NCBI RefSeq assembly: GCF_964204645.1
Contig: NC_134035.1
Span: forward strand, 4,464,501-4,528,500
DNA: 64,000 nt
Reading direction: 5' to 3'
Source: Tubulanus polymorphus
Taxonomy: Eukaryota; Nemertea; Palaeonemertea; Tubulaniformes; Tubulanidae
Position numbers and translations under genes: made by a program. The number at the start of each line of letters is the position of its first letter. Position 1 is the stretch's first letter. This document shows, piece by piece, positions 916 to 21,757 of this stretch. The notes below the pieces were generated by a model that saw nothing but the letters and a program-made list of their open reading frames with translations, was not told where the DNA came from and did not search any database.

Positions 916-2600
916 GTAGCTGTGTGGAAAACTGGAATACAGCTGATTAACCATGTGCTGCAATAGGCCACTATAAACAGTAGTCAGCTGTTGATGCAGC
1001 CACACTACGATCAACGTTCCATCGAACCATGCCTTCCAGCAAGTGCGTTCGGAAATGAACACATTCGCGCTCGTTCCTTAATAAGATGGTAAAATCTAAT
1101 AATGAGGAATTTGTATGAAGCCTTAAAAAAGAATAAGCATTGAATGCTAATCATCACGCATAAAACGATTCATGTGTAAACGAAACGATTTCAGAGAAGT
1201 TGATCCTAGCGCGCATCGATAAACCGGAAGATCAATGCCGCCTTTCTTCGTTGATCCTGTTTGTGTGTTTAACGCGAATTCCGGCTGATCCAAGATACAA
1301 CTTATGTGCTGTTGCTGGACCTCCCAAATTGTCCAAATCTTCTTGCTGTCAAGATGTGGTAAGCCAAGAGTATCGACTCCTTGCTCCCCTTCGAATGCTG
1401 TCAGGAGTTCTTTGATCAGATGATATATCTACACCAATGATCGCGTTCTACGTCGACGATGGCGGGCTAACTCCTTTTCGATGGCATAACATCTACATTT
1501 AAACCGAGTTCAGCTGCTTTGGCTCGACGCAGTAACGAAATATCATCTTCGCTCCATTCGAAGATGCAGGCTGATAACCGTTTCATAAAAGTACTGTACA
1601 ACTGTTGTGAATCAGTTATACACCCGACCGCGAATCTCCGCATGAAATGCCAGATATCGAGGTGAATTTTCAAATCTGGCCAATCGTCGAACATTTGAGC
1701 CAACGAATCGCTGTAGCAATCGCGATCAACATACAAAAGTTCAGGAGGGTTGACTCCAGCATCGCGATGATGAGCGATAATTCCAGATGCCATTTTATGT
1801 AAACCATTACCCTCGCTACCTGTGAGCACGCTAATTAGAACTTGTCGTACTCATTGCCAATGTTGGTGGCCCTGGAAGCAGTTCCTGCTGCACTACCAGC
1901 TAATTTCTTTGTAATCTAGTAAAAGTGATGAATTATTGAAAAACGTTGAACTTAATATAAACATACCATTATTTTCTTTACCACTTGCCTTCTTGGTAGA
2001 GTCCATTCTCAAGACATTCCCATATGTCAACGTAATAGCTGCCTTGACCTCCGACAATCTCTTCAAAATATCTAAGGTGTAAGCAGTTAACAACCAGTCC
2101 GGTTGTGGCAAGCTTGGCATCGCTGGCAGTTCTCGAAATACAAATGGTTCAACCAAAGTCTTGGATTGAGCCTCGGGAAATTTTGCGCAGTCCGCGTGAG
2201 CCTAATGAGCCGTTCGCTGCAACCAAGCTTCATCGTGTTGCTCGTTTAACCTTTTCTGTAATTGGGTTGAGCTATTTCCCAAGCCACTCGGCCGGAGAAG
2301 ACGAATGACGCGAACACCACACGTGTAGCGATATGTCAATATGGGTGTGAAAAGCACTCGGTCGGTGTTTTACATCGAGTTGATCGAGCAACTGGCTACT
2401 CCATCCGATTGACTTCTTTTTACATTTCGGGCATTTGAAGTATTCCTTAGCAAAATTATAATAGCCGTCGATATCAAAGACCTGATGCACGTGTGGATAC
2501 AGACCGGCTGACGTTAGTTCGACCTGATTACATGTTACATGTGAGCACAGAATAATTTGAGAGGCCAGTTTTCTGGGCATCGACAAGAGAAGTTTCGTCG
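916..2600 (-). pseudogene. DUF6729-type transposase-like gene, copy A (decayed)
   Basis: Read on the minus strand, this matches the middle of the gene at 12647-16460. From right to left it holds the zinc-binding domain with ELTSAGLYPH and DIDGYYNFAKEY (2586-2275), a frameshift into VIRLLRPSGLGNSSTQLQK, the segment VLRMDSTKK (about 2000), LLYVDRDC (about 1730), LDIWHFMRRFAVGC (about 1640), GGIDLPVYRC (about 1225), and LLEGMVRW (about 1045). These look like parts of an RNase H-fold (DDE) transposase related to the MULE group, which is my inference. The block that reads STSLES in copy B reads STSLKS here, replacing the putative catalytic glutamate with lysine. Stops and frameshifts make it a pseudogene. 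The family name is from memory. Confidence 0.7.
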
Positions 2601-2745
2601 CAAAATAAGGATTTCACCATGATATTGTCTCCGACCCTTCTTGCAACTTGGTGTTGCGTATTCATCGCTGAGCATCAACTCCAAGCACTTGACATACCGG
2701 TTGCAATCTGGCCACTGAGCTGGTTCTCCATGTCTGTTGATCTCG
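2601..2745 (-). pseudogene. C-terminal fragment of the DUF6729-type gene, out of order
   Basis: In one minus-strand frame this short stretch reads GEPAQWPDCNRYVKCLEL. It corresponds to GSPAQWPDCNRYVEAL in the C-terminal half of the copy at 15.7 kb and to the same motif near 7.11 kb. Here it lies upstream of the N-terminal zinc-binding part of copy A, which starts at about 2600. The order is therefore swapped relative to an intact gene, implying rearrangement or a head-to-tail junction. Its other end joins a broken RING unit at about 2746. Confidence 0.6.
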
Positions 2746-3252
2746 GTTTCGAATCAACAGACGTATATTCCTCCCGGCATTTTACGCATTCTTCTGATTC
2801 TTCCAGTATATTGTTATTATCCGCGGTGGCGCGTACATGCGAGTGCAACGCTTGGGCGTCAATGCAGCGGCGGCGTACATTGAGTTTAACGCTTGGACGT
2901 CAATGCGGCGCAATCCGCGCAAATTTAACCGTGACGCCACATCGATTAACTCGGCCAATCCGTTCAAAAAGTTATTGCGCAAATCATCGCAAATGTTGAG
3001 ATGTTCACGGCTCAATATATCAAGGTCCCTTGTGTGAGATACGGACGCCGTGCTGTCCCTGATAACCGCGTCAACAACATTTGTATTACTGCCCCTGGAA
3101 GTTTCCGCATTATTATTATTGGGTTCATCATCGGTGTTCGCATATGTCCTATCTCCCCTCCCCTCAATGAACAAAATACGCCGATCCAAAACAAACAACT
3201 CTTCTAAAACAATTAAACTACCATTTAACCAGAAAAACTCATATAAAAACAA
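2746..3252 (-). pseudogene. RING-array unit 1, truncated in the RING
   Basis: The minus-strand frame runs through a leader with WLNGSLIVLEELFVLD, an acidic Asn-rich stretch (DDEPNNNNAETSRG), then SREHLN, FLNGLAELIDVASRL and a Met-Tyr-Ala segment. In another frame it reaches the first RING cysteine pair (ECVKCREEYTSVDS) and stops matching there. Half the RING is missing and the sequence joins a piece of the DUF6729-type gene. The leader has no obvious ATG start; the only conserved ATG is the MYxAA methionine near the RING. The leader and RING recur in units 2 to 5, showing a tandem duplicated gene of unknown role, with E3 ubiquitin ligase the usual function of such fingers. Confidence 0.5.
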
Positions 3253-3293
3253 GATGCAGCTCTTTATTGCAGCATAATATTGGCTTAAGGGGA

Positions 3294-3841
3294 CTACCCA
3301 AGCCCTGTGCAGTGTATCAAATTCCGCGGTGATCTGAGAATATAAGGGTATCTGCGGCAGGCCAACCTACGCCAACGCTGTCTAGGTTCGCCGTCTAGAA
3401 AGGCCCACGCAATCAATTGTCTGCACATCGGACACACCGGGTATCTCTCATGCGTGAAAATGTTCATCACGCGTAGGGAACATAGCCGCTGATTGCAACA
3501 TGGTGTCCGGTCAACAGACGTATATTCCTCCCGGCATATTACGCATTTTTCTGATTCTTCCAGTATATTGTTATCATCTACTCCCGCGGCAGCGCTGTAC
3601 ATCGAGTGTAACGCTCCGACGTCAATGTTACGGACGCCGTGCTGTCGTCGATAGCCGCGTCAACAACAATCGTATTACTGCCCCTGGAAGTTTCCGCATT
3701 ATTATCATTGGGTCCATCATCGGTGTTCGTATATGTCCAATCTCCCCTCCCCACAATGGACAAAATACTCCGATCCAAAACAAGCAACTCTTCTAAAACA
3801 ATTAAACTACCATTTAACCAGAAAAACTCATATAAAAACAA
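3294..3841 (-). pseudogene. RING-array unit 2, most complete RING finger
   Basis: The unit has the shared leader (3841-3578) in one frame and the RING segment (3602-3294) in another, overlapping because an internal part of the leader is deleted. The RING part starts at an ATG (MYSAAAG) and reads CVIC, 11 residues, then PCCNQRLCSLRV, then VCPMCRQLIAW. A standard C3HC4 finger would have a fourth cysteine where this one has arginine (CSLR), and Asn stands where His is usual. RING fingers normally recruit ubiquitin-conjugating enzymes. With the lost ligand, activity is doubtful. It ends with a TAG after CTGLG. Confidence 0.55.
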
Positions 3842-3882
3842 GATGCAGCTCTTTATTGCAGCATTTTATTGGCTTAAGGGGA

Positions 3883-4530
3883 CTACCCAAGCCCTGCGCA
3901 GTATAAAAAATTTGGCGGTGATCCAGGAATATAAGGGTTACTGCGGCAGGCCAACCTGCGCCGACGCTGTCTAGGTTCGCCATCTAGAGAGGCCCACGCA
4001 ATCGATTGTCTGCACATAATCGAACAGGCCGGGCGTGCTCTTGCGTGAAAATTTTCATCACACATATGGAACATAGCCGCTGATTGCAACACGGTGTCCG
4101 ATCTACAGACATATATCCCTCCCAGCATATTACGTATTCTTCTAATTCTTCCAGTATATTGTTATTCTCCACGGCGGCAGCGGCGTACATCGAGTGTAAC
4201 GCTTGGACGCCAATGCGGCGGAATTCGCGTGAATTTAACTATGACGCTACATCGATTAACTCGGCCAATCCGTTCAAAAAGTTATCGCGCAAATCATCAG
4301 TGTTGTGATGTTCACGGCTTGATATCTCAAGTTCCCTTGTATGAGGTATGGTATCTAGCCGCTTCAACAACAATCGTATTCCTGCCCCTGGAAGTTTCCG
4401 CATTACTATTATTGGTGTTCATATATGTCCAATCTCCCCTCCCCACGATGGACAAAATACTCCGATCCAAAACAAACAACTCTTCCAAAACAATTAAACT
4501 ACCACTTAACCAGAAAAACTCATATTAAGG
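3883..4530 (-). pseudogene. RING-array unit 3
   Basis: This unit repeats the leader (about 4530-4200, frameshifted) and the RING (4190-3883). The RING starts MYAAAAVENNN and has YVIC, PCCNQRLCSICVMKIF. It keeps the third cysteine pair that unit 2 has lost. It breaks in the last pair: the frame shifts after TQEHAR, and the alternative frame gives an irregular C-x3-C. Units 2 and 3 are thus damaged at different ligands. The sequence shared with unit 2 continues past the stop into a common segment with GATGCAGCTCTTTATTGCAG on the plus strand. Confidence 0.5.
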
Positions 4531-4589
4531 ACAAGATGCAGCTCTTTATTGCAGCAAAATATAGGCTTAAGAGGACTGCCCAAGCTTCG

Positions 4590-5213
4590 TACACTATGTC
4601 CATACTTATTTATCGATAACAAAACTTTTGTCACATTTTTCCAATACACCTCGTTTTCATATTCACTTTCCAAACGGTCTTTATCTATCTACTGTAACTA
4701 TACATAATTTTCTCATCCGCAAACCTTTGTATCTCCCCAAATATATTCCTAATACATACAGATACTCCACTCCTTAATGGTGCTTGTATTCTTTGAATAT
4801 TATTATTATTATTATTAGGTTCATCATCGGTAGTCGTATATGTCCAATCTCCCCTCCCCACAATGGACAAAATACTCTGATCCAAAACAAACAACTCTTC
4901 CAAAACTATTAAACTACCACTTAACCAGAAAAACTCATATTAAGGACAAGATGCAGCTCTTTATTGCAGCATAATATAGGCTTAAGAGGATCGCCCAAGC
5001 CCCATACACTATCTCCATACTTATTTATCGATAACAAAACTTGGGTCACATTTTTCCAATACACCTCGTTGTCATATTTACTTTCCAAACGGTCAATATC
5101 TATCTACTGTAACCATACATAATTTTCTCATCCGCAAACCTTTGTATCTCCCCAAATATATTCCTAATACATACAGATACTCCAACCCTTAATGGTGCTT
5201 GTATTCTTTGAAT
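4590..5213. repeat. Direct duplication of about 205 bp in the RING array
   Basis: The segment starting CTTATTTATCGATAACAAAA at about 4600 and ending near 4798 recurs at about 5020-5213 with a few substitutions. Between the two lies the leader of RING unit 4. The left copy ends at an ATT trinucleotide run, the right one continues into unique sequence. This shows the array grew by tandem duplication of units with their flanks. Confidence 0.75.
4685..4940 (-). pseudogene. RING-array unit 4, leader only
   Basis: Only the leader is left: VLDQSILSIVGRGDWTY, then DDEPNNNNNN encoded by an ATT/AAT trinucleotide run. The frame then crosses into the repeated flanking sequence. No RING cysteines follow, so this is a truncated unit. 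Confidence 0.5.
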
Positions 5214-5619
5214 CCCCAATTGAAATCTCTGCAATAAAAACCTTATGGTTGTTTAAGGAAAAAGAATAAGATTTCAATTTTGTGGTTCAAAAACCAAACA
5301 ACATTAACATCCATTCTTGAACCAAAACAGTTTCCTCGTACTTTGTACTAACAAAAAAATTGCCATAAAAAACAACAAAAATTTGATGTGCCCTTCTCGC
5401 GCTGCAGACCTAGAATGACTTAACACATCCATGTTTGGTGCAGCCACGCTTCCTAAATTTACATACATACACCCAAACCCTGTGATAGGTCACATACCAA
5501 CCACATCACTTCCTGACTGAAAAACTCACTTGCCACCGTTCCGATAGGTGGTGTGTGGATATAGGACAACACGTTCATTCTCCACTCCGTGCCGAATAAA
5601 AGTAATAGTCCTTAGGCAT
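5214..5619. other. Gap in the RING array, nothing recognised
   Basis: AT-rich sequence follows the second direct repeat. I see no coding homology, inverted repeat or RNA gene in it. Confidence 0.5.
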
Positions 5620-6040
5620 ATTACGCATTCTTTTGATTCTTCCAGTATATTGTTATCATCCGCGGCGGCAGCGGCGTACATTGAGTTTAACGCTTAGACG
5701 CATCAATGCAGCCGAATCCGCGCGAATTTAGCCGTGACGCTACATCGATTAACTCGGCCAATCCGTTTAAAAAATTATCGCGCAAATCATCAGTGTTGTG
5801 ATGTTCACGGCTCAATATTTCAAGTTCCCTTGTATGTGATACGGACGCCGTGCTGTCATCGATAGCCGCGTCAACAACAATAGTATTATTGCCCCTGGAA
5901 GTCTCCGCATTATAATTATTGGGTTCATCATCGGTGTATGATGTCCAATCTCCCTTCCCCACAATGAATGAAATACTTCGATCCAAAACAAACAACTCTT
6001 CCAAAACAATTAAACTACCACTTTACCAGAAAAACTCATA
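5620..6040 (-). pseudogene. RING-array unit 5, truncated RING
   Basis: The leader is well kept (DWTSYTDDEPNNYNAETSRG, DAAIDDSTASVSHT, FLNGLAELIDVASRLNSRG). After the conserved Met-Tyr-Ala segment the frame reaches ECVIC at about 5630 and then diverges, so the RING is cut after its first cysteine pair. Units 1 and 5, the two ends of the array, are both broken inside the RING. Only the inner units 2 and 3 keep most of it. Confidence 0.5.
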
Positions 6041-6104
6041 TAAAATCTTTTTTTTACATCAATTAACTCGGCCAATCTGTTCAAAAAGTTATCACGCAAA
6101 TCAT

Positions 6105-8670
6105 CATATAAAATTGGCTCTATATTTCTTGTTTTGTTACCATACTTTATGAATTAAACCAAAAAGTCTCCCCTCTGCTTTTCATAGGGGCTTGGGACAT
6201 AGTCCAGGCAGCATTAAAAACTTGTTTTGGTTTTCTTTCTAATTTTTTAAACATTTTTTTATAATAGATATGGAATATGTAATTAAAACTTCTTCCCTCA
6301 GACTGCACGACATTTCCGACAGATGCGACATTTCCTTTCACAATACTTTTTAACCTATTCACCGCTTTCAGCTTCCTGAAGTTGGCGTTTGCGATAACAC
6401 CGAGTTGTTGACGGAACTGACTGAATGTTCTGATGTACTGATTGAATGTTCTGATTTACAGAAGTCGCTGTAATTGGTCCAGTCGGAATAACAGTTACCT
6501 GTATTGGCGGCAGCGGTTGTTTCGGCAGGATATTTATTCCAGAGTCTCTTGTTTTGGCTTTCCCAGCATTATTTTCCTAGCTGATGAACTGAAAATGCTG
6601 AGCGGCAAGAGGAGGTTTCAGAATCAGCTGTTTTACTACTGGATCTCGAATTATATCTGTTGTCAGTGGTGGTAACGGCAGTGTGATTCCTTGTTCTAGC
6701 ACCACGGTTTCTTTTCTCTTGAAACGTTTGTTGTACCTTACAAGAATAAGAACAAATCATACGAATTAATTTCTTTTTCATCTGTTGGAATTAAAAAATC
6801 GTAATTTGAGAATTTGTTTTGTATATATATCATAAAACACTTATGATACTGGGTAGTTTGAGAAAAATCAATTGCGGAGATATCTACTAGATAGGATGTG
6901 CAATCTAAAACTCACCATTGACTGTGTTATTTATCTCAACAAGTTGGATGTTGCAACCATTCAAAACAAGCCCGTTGTTCATCACCCTATCTTGATCGAG
7001 CTGTAAGATTTCGTAACCTAAGTAAAACGCAGGGTCGTGCCTGATTTTGTGCGAGTCATTGCTGGATGCAGGTTGCAAAGACCAATGCCTCGACATAGCG
7101 ATTACAGTCGGGCCACTGAGCAGGACTTCCATTCTTGCCGATAAAACACCTAAATCAAGTTTTCAAAAATAATGGTTACCGTATATTGAATATATTTCAA
7201 AGAAAATGCCTCATTTGTGGCTTAAATCGAAATATGATTAATATTAAATAAATACCTTCTAGTACTTTCAACAACAAGCAAAACGTTTGTTTTCGAAACT
7301 TTAAATCTGCCCTGTGTCAACTTTGCCTTGTGTCTCGGAGAGAAGTTAGTGTTTTTCTTGTCGTATGGATCCAGGTTATTCCATAGTGATACAATTTTCC
7401 TTGCTTGCACGTTTGTGATTATTTGGTTTTGGGCACTGAACTGTGACGGATTCTAGAACTTAGAATTACAGAAATATCATTAGAAAATACAAAAATTATG
7501 AAAACATATACATGTACATAAATTTCAACCATCGGATAATCAGTTTAATTGGAGAGACAAAAAGAGATGCAAAACGCCACTTACACTCATCTGATGGCAA
7601 ATCAACATAATTGTCCTCTTCACCAGGAATTGGCACCCGTGTTGCTGTTTGAACTGGGCAGTATTTTAAGATCATCGCATTCATCAATAAAGCCTCCATC
7701 ATCAGCAGCAGTGTCACGAATACATGCAACATCACCATCTGTTTTATCGGGATCGGGCAGATTTTGAAGAGGTTCTCCAGTCTGTTTGTACAGATACTCG
7801 ACACCTAATCAATTCACCTATGTTTTGTAATTAGACACTACATAAAAATGGTCAAAATATTAGATATGTTACACTGTGAAATATAGAATATATATAACCT
7901 GTGTGCTGCTTAGGTTCTATGTAATTGATGCAGCATTTTGAAGCTGACGAAAACAGCAGATTGACTGTGTGCTGCAAGAGGCCACTGACAACAGTTTGGC
8001 CAACAGTTCAGCTATTGATGCAGCCACAGTACGGTTGACGTTCCATCGCACCAAGCCTTCCAGAAAGTATGCTGGAAAGGGAACATCATTTGTGCTTGTT
8101 CCTTAAAAAGATGGCCACATCTAATAATGAGAATTTGGTATGATGCCTTGAAAAAGAATACGCATTGAATGATAATCACCGCGTATAAAACGGTTCACGT
8201 GTCAATGAAAGAGACTCCAGAGATGTTGATCCACGTGCGCATCAATAAACCGGAAGATCAATGCCGCCTTTCTTAGATCCTGTTTGTGTGTATAACGAAC
8301 ACTCCGGCAGATCCAAGATGCTGCTAATGTGACTTCCCAAATTGTCCAGATCTTCTCACTGTCAAGAAGTGGCACGCCAAAAGTATCGACTCCTTGGGCC
8401 CCGTCAAATGCAGTTAGGAGTTCCTTGATTAGACGATAAATCTCCTCTGATGATCACGTTCTTCGTCGTCAATGACGGGCCGTCTCCTTTTTTGATGGCG
8501 CAACATCGATAGTACAGCTACTTCAGCTCGACGTAGTAATGAAACATCATCTTTGCTTCATTTGATGATGCAGCCCGACAAACGTTTTACAAACGTGCCG
8601 TACAACCGATGGGAATCAGCTGTACAACAGACAGCGAATCTCTGCATGAAATGCCAGATATCATGACTGA
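6105..8670 (-). pseudogene. DUF6729-type transposase-like gene, copy B (decayed)
   Basis: Minus-strand remains of the C-terminal two thirds of the family. From right to left: an IWHFM-type segment (about 8650), CARGSTSLES with an in-frame TGA shortly before it and a frameshift after it (about 8220), the exon with AAHRLYI (about 7900), EYLYKQTG-like and acidic sequence (7810-7590), ARKIVSLWNNLDPYDKK (7410), GSPAQWPDCNRYVEAL (7110), NGCNIQLVEINNT (6930), a proline-rich tail and YRKRQLQEAESGE (6370). The C-terminal zinc finger breaks off at CRICRKCRAV. The 3' end (6240-6105) matches 18600-18740 inverted, which marks the shared 3' UTR. Introns and splice positions match copy C, so B is a genomic copy and not a retrocopy. 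Confidence 0.75.
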
Positions 8671-8672
8671 TT

Positions 8673-9017
8673 TTAACGAGGAATTGTCAGTAACAATTCC
8701 CGATCGTAACGCTCGGTTTTCTCAATTGTCCGTATAAATCGGGCCGAATGCCCTTTTACCGCATTTAAGTCCTTTGGGTGGTTTATTTCTACGTGATCTT
8801 TAAGTATGCTAACTCTGTGGGACTTAAATATACACAGCGTGCACTGAAAGTTCAATTGACGATTTATTCCGACAGTTTCGCAAATATCTCCGTTTATTAG
8901 TTCCCTCCCACAACTTTCTCGAACAATATGAACATTTCCACACTTTCTCACATTTTGGGAATGGTTCATATATGCCAAGGGGTCCAAAGGGTGAGGACTA
9001 AATTTAATTTTCATCAA
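8673..9017 (-). pseudogene. C2H2 zinc-finger fragment
   Basis: An open frame of 114 codons contains one clear C2H2 finger: FQCTLC, 12 residues, H, four residues, H (DHVEINH). Before it is a cysteine pair (CGNVHIVRESC) that may be a degenerate finger. It begins with ATG at 9017 and ends just before the decayed DDE part of copy B, with no stop-to-start gap typical of separate genes. It could be an exon of a host zinc-finger gene or part of another mobile element; I cannot tell. No neighbouring fingers are visible. Confidence 0.4.
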
Positions 9018-9264
9018 ATCAAATTATGATTTCTAACTCTTTCATCGCTATACACTACATGTAGCATATCCATTTTCTTTCAAATAGCACTGTTTATAGT
9101 TGACATAAAACCACAACTTTGTATCAGTCATCACTTCAGTAACACGCGACACTTAAGAAAATTCAAGGTAGCTGTTTCCCTTTTTGCATGTGGGCTGAAG
9201 GCCCCCCTCTCCCCCAAATACCGCAATTCATATAATGTCCCCCAAGGGCTCTAAAGCTTTAAAG

Positions 9265-9529
9265 AATCAACCCTTCTTGTGAAACTCGATTAGGATGGTA
9301 CGATGGATCCTCCCATCGCGTATTCCTTGAAACAGCATACTAACAAGGATGCATGAATTGTTGAGTAAAAATAGATATTTGTGGACATATATCCCAAATA
9401 TTGAATTCTTTATTCGTTTAAATTTCTGATGTATAATCTATAATCGATCTCGGGCTAAGTTTTAAGAGTCCACGGTACAAGCCACGCCGCATTTGCATAT
9501 TCGTAGCAGACACCATAACCAATAGCGAG
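9265..9529 (+). promoter_or_regulatory. Receptor 1 upstream region with octamer ATTTGCAT
   Basis: This stretch is homologous to 19740-19981 and 22640-22910, upstream of the other two receptors. Shared blocks include TTGTGAAACTCGA and CACAAGCC-like sequence near the start codon. At 9491-9498 there is ATTTGCAT, the POU octamer (ATGCAAAT) on the opposite strand, 32 bp before the ATG. Receptor 3 keeps it, receptor 2 does not. Its use is inference. Confidence 0.4.
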
Positions 9530-10480
9530 ATGGCCTTCGTCAATGTCACCTTCGCTCAACCAATCGGTCACTCTTACCACACCTATTTCGCTCTGAAATC
9601 GATTGTAAAACTATCGGGTTCGAACAGAACAGTGGCGCTGATCATATTCCCGATCGTATTCGGTCTGGGTACGTTCGGCAACACGGCCAGTTTCCTGGTG
9701 ATGAGTAGCCGAAGATTCAGACGATTTTCGTACGCGAATTACTTGATGGTTTTGTCAGTTGCCGATTTATTGCTGTATATCAATATGGCCGGTATGCCGT
9801 TGTGGGAGTACGCGTTGAGAAGAGTTGATTTTTCCAGTGTCGGGCAGTGTATGGCTTACGAATTCGTTTTCCAATTCGCGTATTGCTGGAGCACGACTTT
9901 GATCGCGATTATAACAGTGGAAAGAGTCCTCGTTGTCGTTTTTCCGTTCACATCGCGGGTTATATGCACGGTTAAATGTTCTCGCCGCGTCATGTTAGCA
10001 ATGATTGTTCCCAATTGCCTTGTCGCCAGTCACACGTTTTTTGGAATGCGTTTTTCCGAGCAGTTGAAATGCTACTATTACAGTTTCAACTTCCAGAAAC
10101 AGCTTTACACTTACCTAGTCGCCTTTTACTACGCCGTTCCGTGCGTCCTTCTGATCGTTTGTAATTTAGTAATCATTATTTTCATGCGGCGCGGTTTGAA
10201 AGTCGGGGAAACCGGACGAAAGACGGCTAAAGCCCGCCGTACAACGATAATGCTGATAACCGTATCTCTGGCTTTCGTGGTTACCACATTGCCCAACACG
10301 ATCACGTCCTTTCTACCGATTCCCGAACACACTGTAGAATATCTCTATACGATGTTCACGGTGATAACGTCGCTGAATTATTCGTTTAATTTCTATATTC
10401 ATCTGTTACTGGGGTCTGAAGTCCGCGCGTTCGTACTGGAGAAGATTACCTGCAGAACGGAGGCGAAAATTGCTCGGTAA
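9530..10480 (+). CDS. Rhodopsin-like G protein-coupled receptor 1
   Basis: A single-exon 316-codon gene with seven hydrophobic segments (about residues 35-60, 72-95, 110-133, 152-172, 190-215, 237-260 and 270-292), expected in the plasma membrane as a G protein-coupled receptor. TM1 has GNTASFLVM (conserved Asn), TM2 SVADLL (conserved Asp), TM3 begins after GQC, and ERVLVVVFPF replaces the usual DRY. TM6 keeps the proline (TTLPNT). TM7 has NFYIHLLLGSEVR in place of NPxxY. The conserved loop-2 cysteine (LKC) can pair with the TM3 cysteine. N-terminal NVTF and NRTV are possible glycosylation sites. Intracellular loop 3 is basic (GRKTAKARR). The ligand is unknown; the small length fits peptide or amine receptors. 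The ATG is shared by all three paralogs. Confidence 0.9.
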   Translation: MAFVNVTFAQPIGHSYHTYFALKSIVKLSGSNRTVALIIFPIVFGLGTFGNTASFLVMSSRRFRRFSYANYLMVLSVADLLLYINMAGMPLWEYALRRVDFSSVGQCMAYEFVFQFAYCWSTTLIAIITVERVLVVVFPFTSRVICTVKCSRRVMLAMIVPNCLVASHTFFGMRFSEQLKCYYYSFNFQKQLYTYLVAFYYAVPCVLLIVCNLVIIIFMRRGLKVGETGRKTAKARRTTIMLITVSLAFVVTTLPNTITSFLPIPEHTVEYLYTMFTVITSLNYSFNFYIHLLLGSEVRAFVLEKITCRTEAKIAR

Positions 10481-11640
10481 AATTAGATACAAAATTACCG
10501 GGCAATTTTATCCAATCATTATCAACTAACACTTTTATAATTTAGGGAGATTTGACTTCATGTTACATTGATTTTACGTCCTAGAAGTCATATAGAAATT
10601 GTCCGTAACATAGACGATTATTAAACCAATTTGGCAAATCATTTGTGCTTACTTTTGCATCGCCCTTGCTAGCACTATCAAATTTCAGTTACACATTTTT
10701 GATACTCAGAGAAGCTATTAACATAACAGAAATTTCCTCATAGGCCTATAGAAAATGAAAACAGCCTTACGATAAAGAAAGAAAATATGAAATAGAATTT
10801 AATAAGAAAATGGAATGATAACTTTAATTAACGTATGATATATATTTCGTGTGTATGTTTATGGAATATAGTGTAAAATGCAGGAATACTGATTAATGCA
10901 AAGATTATTTACGCGGCCACCTGAGCGCCTAGGCTGAAGCTGCGTTTATGGTCTAAGTCCTCCGAAATCCCAACAACTTACCAAGGCGTTTGTTTTGGCT
11001 TTTGTCTACGCTCTACAGGCGAGGGTACATTTTATTGCAATTGATTACAAAATCGAATGATATTAAAATTAATTAATATCTAACCGCATAGAATGGATTT
11101 ACTTGTTCCACTACCTAGCCCCGACCCCCTCCCGATGACCATCCGCCACAGGCGACCTCCACTCAAAGACCAGGCTTGAATCATGCCTCGTTACCATCTG
11201 TTTTGGGAGCAAATAGTACTCATGGAAGGTAGTATCCACCGTTCTTAATCTTAGAATAAACGGAACAAGGAAAAAAATCAAGCTAGGATAAATGGAACTT
11301 AAGTTTTTTTGCCCTTTTGAACCTTTTTGTCGAGCCGAAAGTGGTTTTGCATTAGCTTCATCTTTTCATTTTAGTGAATTTGTGATCTTGCTAACGATCC
11401 AACATTGTCCTGTTCCGATTCGAACAGCAAATCACCTGCATCGGGATTTGACGAGTTAACTTCGGGGGGTTGTCTTCCAGTTGGTAGGGCTAGTCATCCG
11501 GTGTTTTTATTTCGCGGAAACGCGGAATCTCGGAATTTTACAATAACGCGGAATTTATTTGATTTCACTATGAATAATAACCGGGCTTAGTATCAGACAA
11601 GGCACCGGTGCTGATGCCCTTGGTGCCAGCGAATCTTCTC
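10481..11640. other. Intergenic region after receptor 1
   Basis: The first 100 bp or so resemble the 3' flanks of receptors 2 and 3 (an AAAATTACC repeat and ATTTTAATAATTAG-type AT-rich sequence). The rest shows no gene or clear element. At 11507-11555 there are three ACGCGGAAT-like motifs with a TTTCGCGG core close to an E2F site, just upstream of the copy C promoter. Confidence 0.4.
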
Positions 11641-11659
11641 TTGAGAATTGGAATGAACC

Positions 11660-11732
11660 TTCCAAATGTTGACCAATCACAGCCATCGACTGTTCCAATT
11701 TCATTCCAAATGTTCCAAATGTTAACCAATCA
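11660..11732 (+). promoter_or_regulatory. Direct-repeat CCAAT promoter of copy C
   Basis: A 20-bp motif, TTCCAAATGTTRACCAATCA, occurs at 11660-11679 and again at 11713-11732 with a single difference, 53 bp apart. Each carries a CCAAT box (11673-11677 and 11726-11730) in the ACCAATCA context preferred by NF-Y. They lie about 150 bp before a splice donor at 11874, which is the arrangement expected of a TATA-less promoter with a short first exon. Confidence 0.5.
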
Positions 11733-11779
11733 GCGGCGAGCTTATGAACGGCGTCGGCTCGTTCTATATCCGGTTCACA

Positions 11780-11873
11780 ACTATACAGTATTCAGCGCGA
11801 TCATTTGAATCGACGAATTTCTCTTCAAAAAATATATCGTTTCCTGTCGTAGATCTAGAGTTTGCTGATCCAA
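11780..11873 (+). other. Probable noncoding first exon of copy C
   Basis: The start is estimated. The end is a consensus donor, CAAGTAAGTG at 11871-11880. The next acceptor, in a polypyrimidine context, is CCCTCTAG ending at 12640, six bases before the ATG. This gives a 5' UTR split by a 767-bp intron. Confidence 0.4.
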
Positions 11874-12482
11874 GTAAGTGTTTTTATAATATTTAACATA
11901 TTTTTCATCGACGAGTGAAGGTTTCATCGTATTTGGTTGTCGAAATGTCCTGAAAATCGCATCTTAAAATCTGAAATTCGAGTCCGTCGAACCCGGAAGT
12001 AATTTCAATAAAGTTTTATTGTTTTATTTATTTCTGCATGTTTAGAACTATTTAAAGTTCGTTGGTTTCGTGTTAATGTTATCGGTCATCGATGCGCGGA
12101 TGATCTTTTATTCCGTGGGCCTTTTAAGACTACAATAGCCGCCTAGTTTGAAATCAATTCAATGACAATAACAATTCCGAACAATGAACAGCGCGTCGGT
12201 CCGGGCCCACGTGGTGAAGTGAAGCCCCTTTGTCACAAACATTGACAAAACATCTATTGAACGATTCCTTTGTTATGTGAATGTGCATTTTATTGCAACT
12301 TTTGAAGCTTATTCAAAATCTGGCTTCATTTATCAGATATTTTTAAGGGCCTATTTTTAATATATGATAGTAGCCTACTGGATGACAAAGGCTAAAGCCT
12401 TCATATTTAAGCCAGAATTATCTTAGGCTACTTTCTCTATAGGCCTGCATCTAGTCTATCTGAACTTATGTTATGTGATACT

Positions 12483-12557
12483 GTCTGCATGGTGTAGAGG
12501 TAACACCCTCGATTCAGAAATGGATTGAGAGCCCCAGGTTCAAATCCTGGTGCAGAC
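12483..12557 (+). tRNA. tRNA-like sequence with enlarged anticodon arm
   Basis: A 7-bp acceptor stem is perfect (GTCTGCA with TGCAGAC). The A box TGGTGTAGAGG and B box GGTTCAAATCC fit the Pol III consensus. The T arm is perfect (CCAGG, TTCAAAT, CCTGG) and the D stem pairs (GTGT with ACAC). The anticodon region is about five bases too long: CTCGA and TTGAG enclose 12 bases, or an 8-bp stem encloses AGAAAT. I therefore assign no anticodon. It may be a tRNA pseudogene, a tRNA with a tiny intron, or the head of a SINE. It lies inside the first intron of copy C. Confidence 0.45.
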
Positions 12558-12646
12558 AATTGACATGACGTATTGTTTGTTCTGTGGTATTTTTATGCTT
12601 ATTTTACATATATTTTTTTGAATTATTTTTCTCCCTCTAGGTTAAC

Positions 12647-14735
12647 ATGAATTCGAAACCGAAATTCAATCGGTTAGGTAACGGCGAGCTCGTGTTGGGC
12701 TATTCATCTGAGGCTGTGGAGTTGAAGAAAGTTTCGAAAAATTCAGGAACTTATCAGTGTAAAGACCCGACATTAGTCCACAAAGTTGCGCTTCATGAGA
12801 CCAGGCTCGCCGGTGGAGATCCATCAAATGAACAGGATGTGCTTTCCCTATATAAGTTGCAGTTTGGAATGTTTAGGGGCCAGTCCTTTAAATGGCTCAT
12901 CGAAAACGGACTCGGATATTCCAGTTGGATTATCAACAGTATGAGGCGTGAACAGCCATCAGACACGCCTCTTTCAAAAAACAAATTTGCTTTTAAGAAA
13001 TACTTCAGTTTTTTCCCGGAATGCGAAGAAGCTCTTGCCTTAAAGGAAAAAGAACGAATGAAAAGAACAAAATCGAAGAACCTCAAAGGTACACTTGATT
13101 TAATGTTATGATAATGATTAAATTTTTAGAAAAACATTGAAATTTTCAAACAATCTCTTACTATTAACTGTACTTTTATTTTGAGCAGACAATACTGAAC
13201 TCGACGACGCTGAACTAGTTACAGCTGTCGTAAATATTGAAACCATGCAGAAGCAGCAGCAGCAGCAGCAGAGTGAATCTACAGCAGAACCGGAGAAAGT
13301 CTCTGGTAATTATTATTTACAAATAATTTGAAAAAAAATTTATGATTAGTTATATTTTCATAATTTTATGTTCCGTTTCTGGTATTTTGAATTTGTAGAA
13401 AATCAGCAGTTCCCGCTACCAGCTGGCTGGAAAGAGATCCTCCCTGAAATGGATCATAAATGGATTTCGCATGCATTGTTTAAACTTAAGCGAGGTGACA
13501 AAGCCGAACTCGATGCTACCAAAATCGATCGTTTGTGGTATTATCCACCCCAACCTCCAGTGGCGCTTCAGCAGATACCGAACCCAGATCCATACTTTGG
13601 AACAAAGTTATTGTTGTGGATGCCACGTAGACTGTGGCACATGAAATTCAAGTGCAGCGTATGTCCCGATATTGAACTGACTGGCGCTGGAATTTATCCG
13701 AGAACTAGGCAGGTACTGGATATAGATGGGTTTTACTCATTGGCCGGAGAATACCTCGAATGTCCTGCGTGCCATAAGAAGTTTATAAGCTGGAGCCAGG
13801 AAATGCTGTCACAGCTCGATGTTGGCCATCGAAATCTTTTCGCGCCGATTCTGACTTATCGCTTTGCATGTGATATTCGCGTTATCAGACTTCTTCGGCA
13901 ACGCGGCCTCGGTAATAGCGCGACACAGCTGCAAAAGACGATTTCGGAACAACACGCGGAATCATGGCTTACTAAAACTGCGCACTATTTGACCGACTGT
14001 GCTCAGTACAAGAACGCGATCGATAATCGTTTGATAACCCAGTCATCTGCATTCAAAGATTCCCCAGAAATGCCATCTGTACCGAAACCGGATTGGTTTC
14101 TCCGCGTTTATTGTTTGGACGTTTTATCAAGATTGGACGAAGTCAAGTCCAACATAACTTCGGTGTTCAGAAATGTCCTGAAGATGGACTCAACGAAAAA
14201 GGTAAAGCATCACAAAATAAATTTCATTTCGCACTTTTAGCCGATTAAACTCTCATGGACCCTTTTTTCTTCTTTTTTTCAGATTGTAAAAAAGCTACAA
14301 GGTCATGCAGCCGGTACAGCAAATTGGGTAACAAATATGGGGAACGAGTTCGGCCAGGTGTTGATTAGCGTTTTGACGGCAGGTGAGGGCAAAGGTTTGC
14401 AGCAGATGGCCACCGGTATAGTGAAGCGATATTCGGACGCAAATGTAAACCCGCCAGTCGCCCTATACGTGGATCGCGACTGTTGCAATGGACGCACCAG
14501 TGATATGTTTTCTGCCTGGCCAGGTTTAGAAGTACGTCTGGACATATGGCATTTTATGCGACGTATTGCTATTGGGTGTACAACTGATTCGCATCAGTTG
14601 TACGGAGTATTCATGCGGAGATTGTCCGGTTGTATCTTCGAATGGAGTACTGATGACATTGCATTTTTAGTAAGTGCGAAGAGATCGGAACTCGGTGTGC
14701 CGTCACTGTCCGATAGTGATGTGCTGGCCCGTTGA
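12647..14735 (+). CDS. DUF6729-type transposase-like gene, copy C, N-terminal and DDE part
   Basis: Coding exons 12647-13088, 13189-13305, 13399-14201 and 14283-14735 join in frame with GT-AG borders to 604 codons, ending at TGA (14733-14735). The first exon has GQSFKWLIENGLGYSSW. The second carries a six-Gln run from CAG repeats. The third has GWKEILPEMDHKW, a zinc-ribbon-like pair (CSVC, CPAC) and VLDIDGFYSLAGEYLEC, which I recall as DUF6729, then MDSTKK. The fourth has GNEFGQVLISVL, LYVDRDCC and LDIWHFMRRIAIGC. I infer an RNase H-fold DDE transposase with D in MDST and VDRD. The expected glutamate segment (STSLES in copy B) and the following LLEGMVRW part are absent between 14735 and 14823. 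Splicing onward would be out of phase. It is probably inactive as a transposase. Confidence 0.7.
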
Positions 14736-14822
14736 AATATTCAGGTATTTTTGGTTCAATTTTATTTCCATTAATTGCTGTTTATTTATTCGCAATAATC
14801 TTAAAACAAAAATTTATTTTAG

Positions 14823-16460
14823 GTGAACTTATCGGAATTGAATATCTGTACAGTCAGACTGGAAAAAGTTTACAATCAGCAGCAGAAGACGTGGACAACT
14901 TGACAGAATTAGAAGACGACGAAGGCTTCAATGAGGAAGTTGATGATATGACGATTCCTCCACCTCTTCCGACTGAGCCAGCTCGTTTACCGCTGCCAGA
15001 CTGCGATGAAGACATCGATATGCCATCAACTGAGTGTATGTGTTAACATAAACTGAAAAAAAACCATGAATTAATACTGCAGGCAGCAACTCAACAAATT
15101 ATTCATGAATAGAAATGTAATTAAGCCTTTATCTTTTACTTTCCAGTACTGGAATCATTATCTGTGGCTGCACCAGTTGATATCAACGTTCCACCGGAGA
15201 ATGAATCTCAGGATGCACAGTTTACGGTAAAAAGAATTTTGTTTTCTATCCCTATTTTAATTGGTAGTTTATCGCCTAATTCAATTTGGTTGTAATTGAT
15301 TTTTTATTTTGCTTTAGGAATCAGTCGGACCAGATAATATCCCTGGATTTGAGAAGGTCCAGCAATTGGCTGATTATTTAGTGGATTTACGTCAATGTCC
15401 GGTTCTGACTAACGTACAGGCGAGGAAAATTGTATCTCTATGGAACAACCTCGATCCATACGACAAGAAATCCACAAAATTCTCTCCACGACATAAGACG
15501 AAATTAACCCAGGGCAGATTCAAAGTGTCAAAAACAAACGTTTTGCCTGGTGTTGAAAGTACAAGAAGGTATTTAGTTAATATTAATCATTATTTCGATT
15601 TAAGCCACAAATGAAGCATTTTCCCTAATATATAACCAATTTTCGGTAACCATTATTTTTGAAAACTTGTTTAAGGTGTTTTATTGGCGAGAATGGTAGT
15701 CCTGCCCAGTGGCCCGACTGTAATCGATACGTCGAGGCATTAATCTCACGTCTCTGCGACCTGCATCCAGGAATGACTCGAACCAAATCAGGCACGACTC
15801 AACGTTGGACTTTGGTGATGAAAACATATAGATCAATTAGAGATAAAGTCATGAGCAACGGGCTGGTTGTAAATGGTTGTAATATACAACTGGTCGAGAT
15901 AAATAACACGACTTTAAGTCAGTGGTAAGTTTTAGATTGCACATTCGTAGATATCTCCTCAATTGATTTTCCTCAAACTACCCAGTATCACGAGTGATAT
16001 ACAAACATCTTTACAGATGAATAAGAAATGTAATGAATTTTTATGATTTTTTTTTCTTTTTCTTCAAAGGTACAACAAACGTTCCAAAAGAAAAGAAACC
16101 GTAGTGCTACAGCAAGGGATAACGTTGCCGACGCCACCACTGACGACAGATACAATTCGTGATGCAGTATTGAGACAGGCGATTCCGATACCTCCTCCCA
16201 CCGCTCAGCATTTTCAATTCAATAACCCGGAAAATGATGCTGGGAAAGCGAAAACAAGAGACTCTGGTGTAAATATACTGCCGAAGCAACCACCGCTGCC
16301 ATTACACCTACCGGTAACCATTGTTCCGGCCGGACCATGTACAATGACTCCAGTTATTCAGAGCGTTCTATCGGTTCCATCCACTACGCAGTGGTATCGC
16401 AAACGACAACTTCACAAAGCTGAGAGCGGCGAATCAGTAAAGAAATATCGTGAGAGGAAA
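14823..16460 (+). pseudogene. Copy C C-terminal exons
   Basis: Exons 14823-15035, 15147-15226, 15318-15568, 15676-15924 and 16070-16460 have matching phases and canonical borders. They encode GELIGIEYLYSQTG, a long acidic and proline-rich stretch (DDEGFNEEVDD, PPPLPTEP), ARKIVSLWNNLDPYDKK, GSPAQWPDCNRYVEAL, NGCNIQLVEINNT and a basic, proline-rich tail (YNKRSKRKET; LPTPPLTTD). All of these also occur in copy B. The exon chain is open, but the preceding exon ends at a stop and no phase-compatible donor is visible. The last exon is cut by the LINE immediately after RERK at about 16460. Confidence 0.65.
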
Positions 16461-18313
16461 GGTCCAACCATATCCATAGCTAACATTGCTAATAAATTTA
16501 ATGAGTACTTTGTAAACATCGGTAATAAGCTTGCCGAAAAGATAGGTTTGGGTACCGATGGGATTAGCATGAAAGTAACTAAAAAAATTTTTGACTTAAT
16601 TAAAGATCCTCTCTGCCATGTTTTTAACATGAGTCTACAGACTGGAATTGTTCCGGACAAATTAAAAATCGCTAGAATTCGACCTTTATACAAAAGTCGT
16701 GACAAAGATAACTTTAATAATTACCGGCCCATCTCAATTTTGCCTTGCTTTTCAAAGATTCTTGAAAAAGTCGTGTACAACAGACTAATGTCTTATTGTG
16801 ATAAATTTTCTATCATAAATTCAAATCAATTCGGTTTTAGAAAGAATCACTCCTCTGCCATGGCAGTCATCAAAATTATTGATGAAATTTCATATAATCT
16901 TGAAAATAAAAATCCCACTATCGGTGTTTATTTGGACTTATCTAAAGCCTTTGATACAGTCAACCATGAAATATTATTGTCAAAATTAGATTTTTATGGA
17001 ATTAAAGGTCGCGCACTTTGCTGGTTTAGAAATTATTTGGAAAACCGACAACAAACTGTTCAAATTGATAATTGTAAGTCTCAACTTTTGAATATATCTA
17101 CTGGTGTGCCTCAAGGTTCCATTTTGGGACCGTTACTTTTTTTAATATACGTAAATGACTGCGTTAATGTCAGCAACATTTTGAAATTTACGCTTTTTGC
17201 AGATGACACTAATGTCTTTGCGAGCGGTTCCGATATTCATCACCTTGCATTGACCGTGTCTAGTGAACTTGATAAACTAGCCACGTGGTTTTACGCTAAT
17301 AAATTATCTTTAAACTTGCTAAAAACTCATTGCATGGTATTTGGCTCACAACTACCACTTAACATTTCGATTCAAATCAGCGGAATTAATATTGATCAAG
17401 TTCATAGCACAAATTTTTTGGGTATAAATATTGACGATAAACTTTCATGGATTGATCATATCAATAATGTTCAACGCAAGGTATCGAAGAGTATCAGTAT
17501 GTTAAATAGATTAAAACGATTTTTACCTGAGAAAACTCTTATTCAATTGTATTTTAGTTTAGTGGAACCGTATTTAAGTTATTGTAACATAGTCTGGGCT
17601 CAAAATTTTAATGTCTATTTAGATTCATTATTACTACTTCAAAAACGTGCGGTTCGAATAATAACAAATTCATATTATTTAGAACATACTGATCCACTCT
17701 TTAAAAGACTGAAAATACTGAGAATTAAAGAAATGAACAAATTACAGTTAGGATGCTTCATGTTTAATTATAACAAATCCATGCTACCTGATTCTTTTAA
17801 TAACTATTTTCAATTTCGACATGTACTCCACAATTATCAAACTCGTAGCCAAAACAATATGGAAATCCCTCGATTTCAAACTCGAAGAAATAAATTTTCG
17901 GTAAAGGTTTCTGGTCCAAAACTTTGGAATTCACTCGATTCAACTTTAAAGCAGTCGAAGAATGTTTATGTATTTAAAAAGAATTTCAAGCAGTATCTGT
18001 TAACGGGTCAATAGTAATTTAACATTTGTTTAATATGCGTTTATAGGTCGATCCGAAATTAACTTGTCATTATGGATGTGTGTGCGTGCGTGCGTGCGTG
18101 CGTGCGTATGCGTGAGTGTTGTGGTGCAGGGTTGTGTACATGTGTGTGTGTGCGTGCGTGTGTTTGATTTCTATGGGCGCCAGGGCCATGTTTTATGGAT
18201 ATAAGTTTGTAACTTCTCCTGGTGTCCATCGACTTGAATTACATTATTTTATTATATTATCTTGTTGTAATATTCTAGTGTAATTTAATTCGTGAATAAA
18301 GAATAAATAATAA
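16461..18313 (+). mobile_element. 5'-truncated non-LTR retrotransposon with intact RT
   Basis: From NKFNEYFVNIGNKLAEKIG onward this encodes a reverse transcriptase of the CR1/L2/Jockey type with no stop until 18014. Visible RT blocks are YRPISILPCFSKILEK, GFRKNHSS, YLDLSKAFDTVNHE (catalytic Asp), TGVPQGSILGPLLF, and LFADDTNVFA with the paired Asp near 17200. The C-terminal part includes LDSLLLLQKRAVRIIT and FSVKVSGPKLWNSL. There is no endonuclease, so the copy is 5' truncated, the usual result of target-primed integration. The 3' end has CGTG repeats and an AATAAA-rich tail near 18297. The RT is uninterrupted, which suggests a recent insertion. The target duplication is not evident. Confidence 0.85.
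18075..18166. repeat. CGTG/GT microsatellite in the LINE 3' UTR
   Basis: An interrupted run of TGCG and TG units follows the RT stop codon, within the LINE tail. Confidence 0.85.
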
Positions 18314-18450
18314 TATGTCGGAAATGTCGAGCAGTTCGGGGGCCTGACCATAAACAATATTACGGAAGTTGGTATTGCCCCTCGACTGAAACAGAACAAT
18401 TTGAGACCTGGCTTCAGTCTTTACCAGCTTATAAAAAACGAAAATTGTGA
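18314..18450 (+). pseudogene. Copy C terminal zinc-finger piece beyond the LINE
   Basis: After the LINE the original gene resumes: CRKCRAV, GSWYCPS, ETWLQSLPAYKKRKL and a TGA at 18448-18450. Copy B has CRICRKCRAV at the same place, directly following its YCERK-like segment. The pair C-x2-C with a later WYC suggests a small zinc finger at the natural C-terminus. The LINE separates it from the rest of the protein, so it is now untranslated 3' sequence unless the LINE is spliced out. Confidence 0.65.
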
Positions 18451-18740
18451 TGATGTAAATAATGTTTATATATATATTCATGTGATCTCTGAAAATAAAA
18501 CTTCTTCATAAATAGAATTAATTAATGCTAATGATACCAGTACAAAAATGTTAATTGTATAGAGCATATCTGTTATTTAAAAAAGTTTAAAAATTAAAAA
18601 AAAAAAACAACCAAAACAAGTTTTTAATGCTGCCTGGACTGTGTCCAGAAGATCCCAAGCCCTTATGAAAAGCAGAGGGGAGACTATTTGGTTGATGGTA
18701 AAAAACAAAAGAAAAATATGGAGCAAATTTAATAAATAAA
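18451..18740 (+). other. 3' UTR and end of the copy C element
   Basis: Sequence at 18600-18740 is an inverted match to 6105-6240 beside copy B (GTTTTTAATGCTGCCTGGAC on this strand). Identity fades by about 18740. An AATAAA at 18731-18736 may be the polyadenylation signal. This defines the 3' limit of the duplicated unit. Confidence 0.6.
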
Positions 18741-21596: not shown

Positions 21597-21757
21597 TAGA
21601 CAAAAACCCACAATAAAAAGAAAAATATCTGGTAGCTTAACGTTTCAACTCAATTCTATGAGCCATTTTCAAAACAGTTTTTGAAAATGGCTCATAGAAT
21701 TGAGTTGAAACGTTAAGCTACCAGATAGTTTTTCTTTTTATTGTAGGTTTTTGTCTA
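21597..21757. repeat. Near-perfect 161-bp fold-back hairpin
   Basis: Left arm 21597-21674 and right arm 21679-21757 are reverse complements apart from one substitution and one single-base indel, around a four-base loop (CAGT). The arms contain TATCTGGTAGCTTAACG and GAGCCATTTTCAAAA. Such a structure fits a fold-back element or a long-hairpin RNA precursor. Nothing in the flanks shows a target duplication with certainty. Confidence 0.9.

Follow-up and report, generated by a model that had tools for sequence, protein, structure and literature searches.

We examined a 64,000 bp window of the Tubulanus polymorphus genome (C11:4464501-4528500; contig NC_134035.1), which holds three copies, here called A, B and C, of a DUF6729-type gene. 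As set out below, the family encodes transposases of the Dada DNA-transposon superfamily. The original prediction was that a block, CARGSTSLES, supplies the third acidic residue of an aspartate-aspartate-glutamate (DDE) triad like that of Mutator-like elements (MULEs), with the first two in MDST (D1) and VDRD (D2). The block was said to be ruined differently in each copy, either by loss of cutting activity with other functions kept, or by coincidence. All of the motifs named were found among copies A, B and C.

Relatives were identified by a six-frame search of the 268 Mb genome, and their loci are labelled L0xx. There were 24 related matches, six of them from near-identical elements. Residue numbers below are those of L042, an 8253 bp element whose gene has about 1336 residues, several exons and no lesion. 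L043, L045 and L046 share 99.4-99.98% identity with L042 across about 8.26 kb. L044 is similarly close (99.4-99.98%, compared across 7.2 kb), and L047 has 98.8% identity over the 5.3 kb compared. Note that a one-base step at 6244 in the L042 alignment arose because the query was cut by hand at an exon end. Signs of recent activity are the tandem arrangement of the full-length elements L043 and L044, with TAGCTC between them (C8:13361500-13380499), and the position of L046, also full length and near-identical, within a 5S rRNA cluster.

Three damaged copies in the window

Copy A is a fragment on the - strand, with features as follows (window positions).

866-2613, -: Dada transposase pseudogene fragment, exons 3-5, L049-type (frameshift-aware spliced alignment to the L049 protein)
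1147-1158, -: destroyed splice donor past the Glu exon, common to copy A and its L051 duplicate
1186-1215, -: Glu block CALGSTSLKS (E770K; Glu codon AAA)
1719-1730, -: VDRD, second catalytic Asp
1845-1846, -: 1 bp deletion (frameshift) between D1 and D2, common to copy A and its L051 duplicate
1995-2006, -: MDST, first catalytic Asp
2621-2730, -: Dada exon-7 fragment in the wrong order, lying 5' to exon 3 of copy A

The fragment matches PF20499 (DUF6729; E 7.7e-25) and is 78% identical to L049 in amino acids and 85% in DNA. Across 553 aligned residues it has four in-frame stops and seven frameshifts. The substitution to SLKS was as predicted. The L051 duplicate is 89% identical to copy A in DNA, and its Glu codon is still GAG. 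Since the two share the 1 bp deletion and the donor loss, while the duplicate has the glutamate, copy A was frame-broken before its glutamate changed. In the simplest history, the ancestor of copy A would have died first, and the missense change at the glutamate would have come later, in copy A.

Copy B is also on the - strand.

about 7420-8677, -: 5' part, of L049/A type, which runs from DxxH and has neither D1 nor D2
6107-7416, -: 3' part, a C-type fragment with exons 6-8 and the 3' untranslated region (UTR), 76-77% DNA identity to the copy C 3' half
8212-8241, -: Glu block CARGSTSLES, intact
8242-8244, -: TGA directly before the block, where L049 and copy A have CGA (C to T at a CpG)

Copy B is a mosaic of two fragments, in DNA comparison L049/A-type (8662-7420) followed by C-type (7416-6107). 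It has eight stops and eight frameshifts, including a +1 frameshift at about 8211, directly past the block. The same CGA to TGA transition occurs in the L051 duplicate of copy A. A stop before the block and a frameshift after it had both been correctly noted; the block itself is not ruined, as the lesions flank it. The damage is a CpG nonsense mutation and an indel on either side of an intact block. Abutting the truncated 5' end of copy B is an open frame (8676-9023, -) that weakly matches a C2H2 zinc finger.

Copy C lies on the + strand.

12647-14735, +: 5' half, with DUF6729, D1, D2 and DxxH, then TGA; four open exons
about 12647-13088, 13188-13306, 13398-14202 and 14283-14732, +: the 5' exons, with GT-AG borders
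14184-14195, +: MDST, first catalytic Asp
14469-14480, +: VDRD, second catalytic Asp
14730-14735, +: internal-deletion junction, SDSDVLAR running out of frame to KYSG and TGA (14733-14735)
14823-16468, +: 3' half, open exons at 14823-15034, about 15327-15567, about 15675-15920 and about 16070-16468
16469-18300 (approximate), +: non-long-terminal-repeat (non-LTR) retrotransposon reverse transcriptase open reading frame inserted in the last exon (PF00078, RVT_1, E 2.6e-34)
18310-18447, +: end of the last exon, resuming at 18310, with the C-terminal zinc motif

Copy C matches PF20499 with E 8.7e-85. Relative to L042, about 175 codons and one intron (about 0.6 kb) are missing, with the Glu block inside the lost part, and a C-type relative in L051 runs on beyond the copy C breakpoint. 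Copy C is thus an internally deleted copy. The block is indeed absent, with none between the TGA and the exon from 14823. Copy C had also been described as well spliced, which fails at the junction, where the TGA results from the frame shift that the deletion causes. A hidden exon encoding the block was considered and ruled out: only 87 bp are available, and a deletion accounts for the junction. Just upstream of copy C (12482-12559, +) is a tRNA-like sequence that occurs once in the genome and whose anticodon region is irregular.

DUF6729 proteins as Dada transposases

Insertion sites were informative. L045 lies inside a tRNA-Met gene, and joining its flanks gives an intact tRNA-Met (CAT) at the empty site. 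The target, TAGCGC, falls at about tRNA nucleotides 8-13, and the flanks are TGGCGC/TAGCGC. L042 is flanked on each side by TGGCGC, a target-site duplication. L046 is inside a 5S rRNA gene, where a clean target-site duplication is absent. Terminal inverted repeats are absent from the ends of the 8253 bp element. Hallmarks of Dada are a 6-7 bp target-site duplication, a length of 4.7-11 kb, no terminal inverted repeats and insertion into multicopy small-RNA genes (PMC3706591, PMC8869645).

Protein features were also compared. Within DUF6729, L042 has a zinc motif, C-x4-C-x32-C-x2-C, where the published Dada N-terminal CCCC spacing is x4, x34, x2 (PMC3706591). The L042 C terminus has C-x2-C-x8-H-x8-C, one residue shorter than the published CCHC motif, and copy C has this motif at 18310-18444. 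Residues D513, D581, D605xxH608 and E770 of L042 lie within IDSTKK, TDRDCC, LDVWHF and RCARGSTSLESFHLHLNRFIPG, respectively, with 67 residues between D513 and D581. The triad given for Dada-U6_DR is D567, D635 and E811 (PMC3706591).

Because the elements sit in tRNA-Met and 5S rRNA genes, the superfamily can be identified as Dada, and DUF6729 proteins are evidently Dada transposases. Furthermore, since the published CCCC and CCHC motifs, the triad spacing and the insertion sites match, DUF6729 itself evidently corresponds to the N-terminal zinc-binding region of these proteins, ending shortly before the first catalytic Asp. Dada is a relative of MuDR, hAT, P and Kolobok, and not itself a MULE. 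Outside DUF6729, Pfam gave a single sub-threshold MULE match (E 0.052). Assignment of the glutamate in the original prediction therefore stands (E770 in intact paralogs, E811 in Dada-U6_DR), while assignment to MULEs does not.

Further searches were negative. A core profile matched no PDB sequence, no relative was found in the viral contigs searched, and the name DUF6729 was not found in any paper in the literature searched. We also looked for a target gene around copies A-C in the window and identified none. Beside the L049 copy are U6 small nuclear RNA genes at 7223-7329, 8509-8615 and 6072-6173, two intact and one degenerate. These adjoining genes suggest that the A/B lineage targeted U6.

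The glutamate and the predicted fold

The Glu block is conserved across all intact members. The SLES glutamate, E770, is the third acidic residue of the DDE triad, and homology and predicted fold argue for a catalytic role. Two AlphaFold2 models place D1 on beta1, D2 after beta4, DxxH after beta5 and the glutamate on the last helix, with low predicted local distance difference test scores (pLDDT; 54 and 56). Compared by VIA-align with integrase catalytic cores, the second model gave Z up to 9.3, with Z of at least 8 for 33 chains. Note that, in VIA-align, Z below 8 can be chance, and a common fold does not show function. A few of the integrase alignments run as far as model residue 283 (E770) or 287, placing the end at integrase 152-153, beside the catalytic E152. 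The first VIA-align run had ISCth4 (Z 5.9) and Hermes (Z 5.0) as its best rows, too low alone. Foldseek alone found no significant match, with ISCth4, an IS256-family transposase, ranked 2. Structure prediction and comparison with intact family members, both of which had been proposed at the outset, agreed with the assignment: the glutamate sits in the SLES block of near-identical intact copies, and the predicted core matches integrase cores.

An intact Dada transposase would be an RNase H-like nuclease with two Asp (in MDST or IDST, and in TDRD or VDRD), DxxH and the glutamate in GSTSLES. The nuclease would excise the element and insert it at a 6 bp site within a small-RNA gene.

Damage at the glutamate block as probable ordinary decay

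We conclude, with a probability of roughly 0.92, that A, B and C are decayed Dada copies in which the lesions at the Glu block are unrelated neutral events. For copies B and C, the order of those events is one that we infer. Indeed, 10-residue windows that differ somewhere from the nearest relative, L049, make up 92% of those in copy A and 97% in copy B. Therefore, block damage in these two copies is not beyond chance. Similarly, 15 of 109 core sites have changed in copy A, E770K among them, where core sites are those invariant in intact or best-kept relatives and present in copy A. At this rate, about three in four blocks of ten invariant residues would be altered somewhere.

A Glu-specific pattern of mutation was sought across the genome and not seen. 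Other decayed copies keep the glutamate and lose other catalytic residues. The glutamate is kept in L048, L049, L052, L053, L054, L014, L016, the copy A duplicate and copy B; of these, L053 has lost DxxH (NxxN) and L054 lacks D1. Internal deletions that take out the DDE core are routine for these elements, because L062 (C10:8825735) and L064 (C10:4165229) have the same deletion junction (L042 4190 to 8241) at different loci, and because Dada-U6N1_DR is a published internally deleted case (PMC3706591, PMC8869645). In L062 and L064 the whole DDE core is gone, with the 3' end and a ribozyme, described below, retained.

Substitution rates were also compared. Between copy A and its duplicate, the ratio of nonsynonymous to synonymous divergence (dN/dS) is 0.55, whereas in neutral simulations the mean was 0.66-0.83 and the 5% point 0.46-0.60. 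Neutral decay of this pair is not rejected with a CpG effect and is borderline without it. For copy C, dN/dS is uninformative, as each relative is either a pseudogene or saturated in dS.

Several points weigh against neutral decay, or against the assignments on which it depends. The structure models of the Dada core are of low confidence (pLDDT 54-56). Copy C is otherwise open for about 900 codons and may have stayed functional until recently. Gene conversion is, in principle, another possible source of the lesions common to copy A and its duplicate. Finally, dN/dS for that pair is slightly under the 5% point of the simulation lacking a CpG effect.

Truncated transposases that act as repressors are known among other DNA transposons. 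Copy C could, likewise, yield a truncated protein with the DUF6729 zinc motif, D1 and D2, ending at 14733, that represses related elements. Its four exons are open from 12647 to 14735 with GT-AG borders. However, an mRNA with so early a stop would be a likely target of decay, and we regard this explanation as improbable.

Less probable still is that cutting was lost selectively while binding was retained, with at least one copy becoming a host gene. There is a precedent in dDada of cyprinoid fish, whose locus is orthologous and transcribed and encodes mutated catalytic Asp residues and DxxQ (PMC8869645), and the copy C exons are open upstream of its deletion. Against this, the lesions differ in kind, and copies A and B, with 11 and 16 stops or frameshifts, are broken throughout. 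In copy A, as noted, the glutamate changed after the frame was broken. Copy C is frame-shifted by its own deletion and has a long interspersed nuclear element (LINE) insertion. No copy has lost the glutamate with the remainder intact, and a domesticated gene should keep an open frame outside the catalytic site, which none of the three does. Of the two readings originally offered, coincidence is therefore the better: copy A was already frame-broken, copy C has a large deletion and other copies lose other residues.

That SLES is not the catalytic glutamate, so that changes in the block are irrelevant, is equally hard to credit: the published E811 lies 175 residues past D2, compared with 188 here, the block is kept in all intact members, and some integrase alignments bring the last aligned residues of the second model (E770 or 287) beside E152.

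A predicted twister ribozyme at Dada 3' ends

The window has two matches to twister-P1 (Rfam RF03160).

18621-18683, +: twister-P1 in the copy C 3' UTR (54.4 bits, E 4.8e-10)
6167-6220, -: degenerate twister-P1 in the copy B 3' UTR (34.3 bits, E 9.6e-6)

Others are in L042 (9123-9191), L049 (1795-1856 and 1549-1604, -), L051 (6776-6841, -), L062 and L064. The genome-wide search scored 62 of 9986 candidates and gave at least 10 matches, a lower bound, as weaker matches elsewhere are possible. All 10 of those scored lie where a Dada element, or a deletion derivative of one, has its 3' end. One match reaches the Rfam gathering score (67.2 bits) and the others are below it, at 34-61 bits. We considered whether the copy C ribozyme is part of the inserted non-LTR element. 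This was ruled out; the ribozyme lies past the resumed Dada exon and is present in Dada copies free of the insert.

The ribozyme core is common to four sequence lineages (L042, copies C and B, L051, and L049). When L062 and L064, which belong to the L042 lineage, are compared with L049 or copy C, the DNA of this region is similar only within the ribozyme. Arms of the P1 helix were then paired within and between lineages. For L042, pairing of its own arms is worth -9.3 kcal/mol, compared with -2.8 at best with arms of other lineages. Corresponding values for L051 are -8.4 and -6.1 kcal/mol. Copy C has -7.0 kcal/mol with its own arms and -7.8 with the arm of copy B, of the same lineage. The first L049 ribozyme (5' arm as row) is marginal, at -6.5 kcal/mol compared with -6.2 with L042 arms, and the second pairs better with some foreign arms than with its own. 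Hence, the P1 arms appear mostly to covary, and the case for a conserved RNA is good, though uneven.

We lean towards the view that Dada elements in this genome carry a conserved, selected, predicted twister self-cleaving ribozyme in the transposase-gene 3' UTR. A possible role is in forming or trimming transposase transcript 3' ends, or in splitting the transcripts from read-through of the host small-RNA gene. RTE retrotransposons have been described as having twister motifs at their 5' ends (PMC7761336). In the literature searched, no paper was found that links twister and Dada.

Neighbouring sequence

Between copies A and B, 2776-6045 holds diverged repeat units with RING-finger-like fragments (sub-threshold in Pfam), interleaved with Dada fragments. 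Tandem pairs are found here at 3040-3627/3629-4215 (89%) and 4408-4798/4823-5213 (94%). An intact single-exon rhodopsin-type G-protein-coupled receptor gene lies between copies B and C (9527-10480, +; 7tm_1, E 2e-16). Further on, at 21628-21725, is a hairpin of which both strands match several microRNA models below cut-offs; it is probably a palindromic repeat like a miniature inverted-repeat transposable element.

Comparison with known systems

Our data settle the nature of DUF6729 proteins as Dada transposases, with DUF6729 being the N-terminal zinc motif plus the stretch up to the first catalytic Asp. Apparent glutamate-specific inactivation is ordinary decay and so is not to be pursued as domestication. 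As a by-product, a connection emerges, open to testing, of a self-cleaving ribozyme with a superfamily of DNA transposons resident in small-RNA genes. If true, this would make a ribozyme a standing component of a cut-and-paste DNA transposon.

The elements resemble Dada, as described in PMC3706591 and PMC8869645, in having the DDE triad and DxxH, the spacing of 67 residues between Asp found in Dada-U6_DR, the CCCC and CCHC zinc motifs at either end of the protein, many introns, a length of 8.25 kb and no terminal inverted repeats. They also share the 6 bp site, TGGCGC/TAGCGC, at tRNA nucleotides 8-13, insertion in 5S rRNA and internally deleted derivatives. They differ in carrying a 3' UTR twister-P1, unmentioned in the examined parts of those papers, and in that window copies A-C are pseudogenes. 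The nucleases of MULE/MuDR, hAT, IS256 and retroviral integrases have the same RNase H-like order, D-D-(C/DxxH)-E, but their sequence similarity to the Dada copies is marginal only. The dDada protein of Cyprinoidei (PMC8869645, as above) is likewise Dada-derived with altered catalytic residues. However, it is the product of an orthologous transcribed gene, whereas copies A-C are frame-broken with unrelated lesions at the glutamate. Lastly, compared with twister-P1 (RF03160), the Dada 3' UTR elements retain the core and the P1 and P2 helices, although only one scores at the gathering level.

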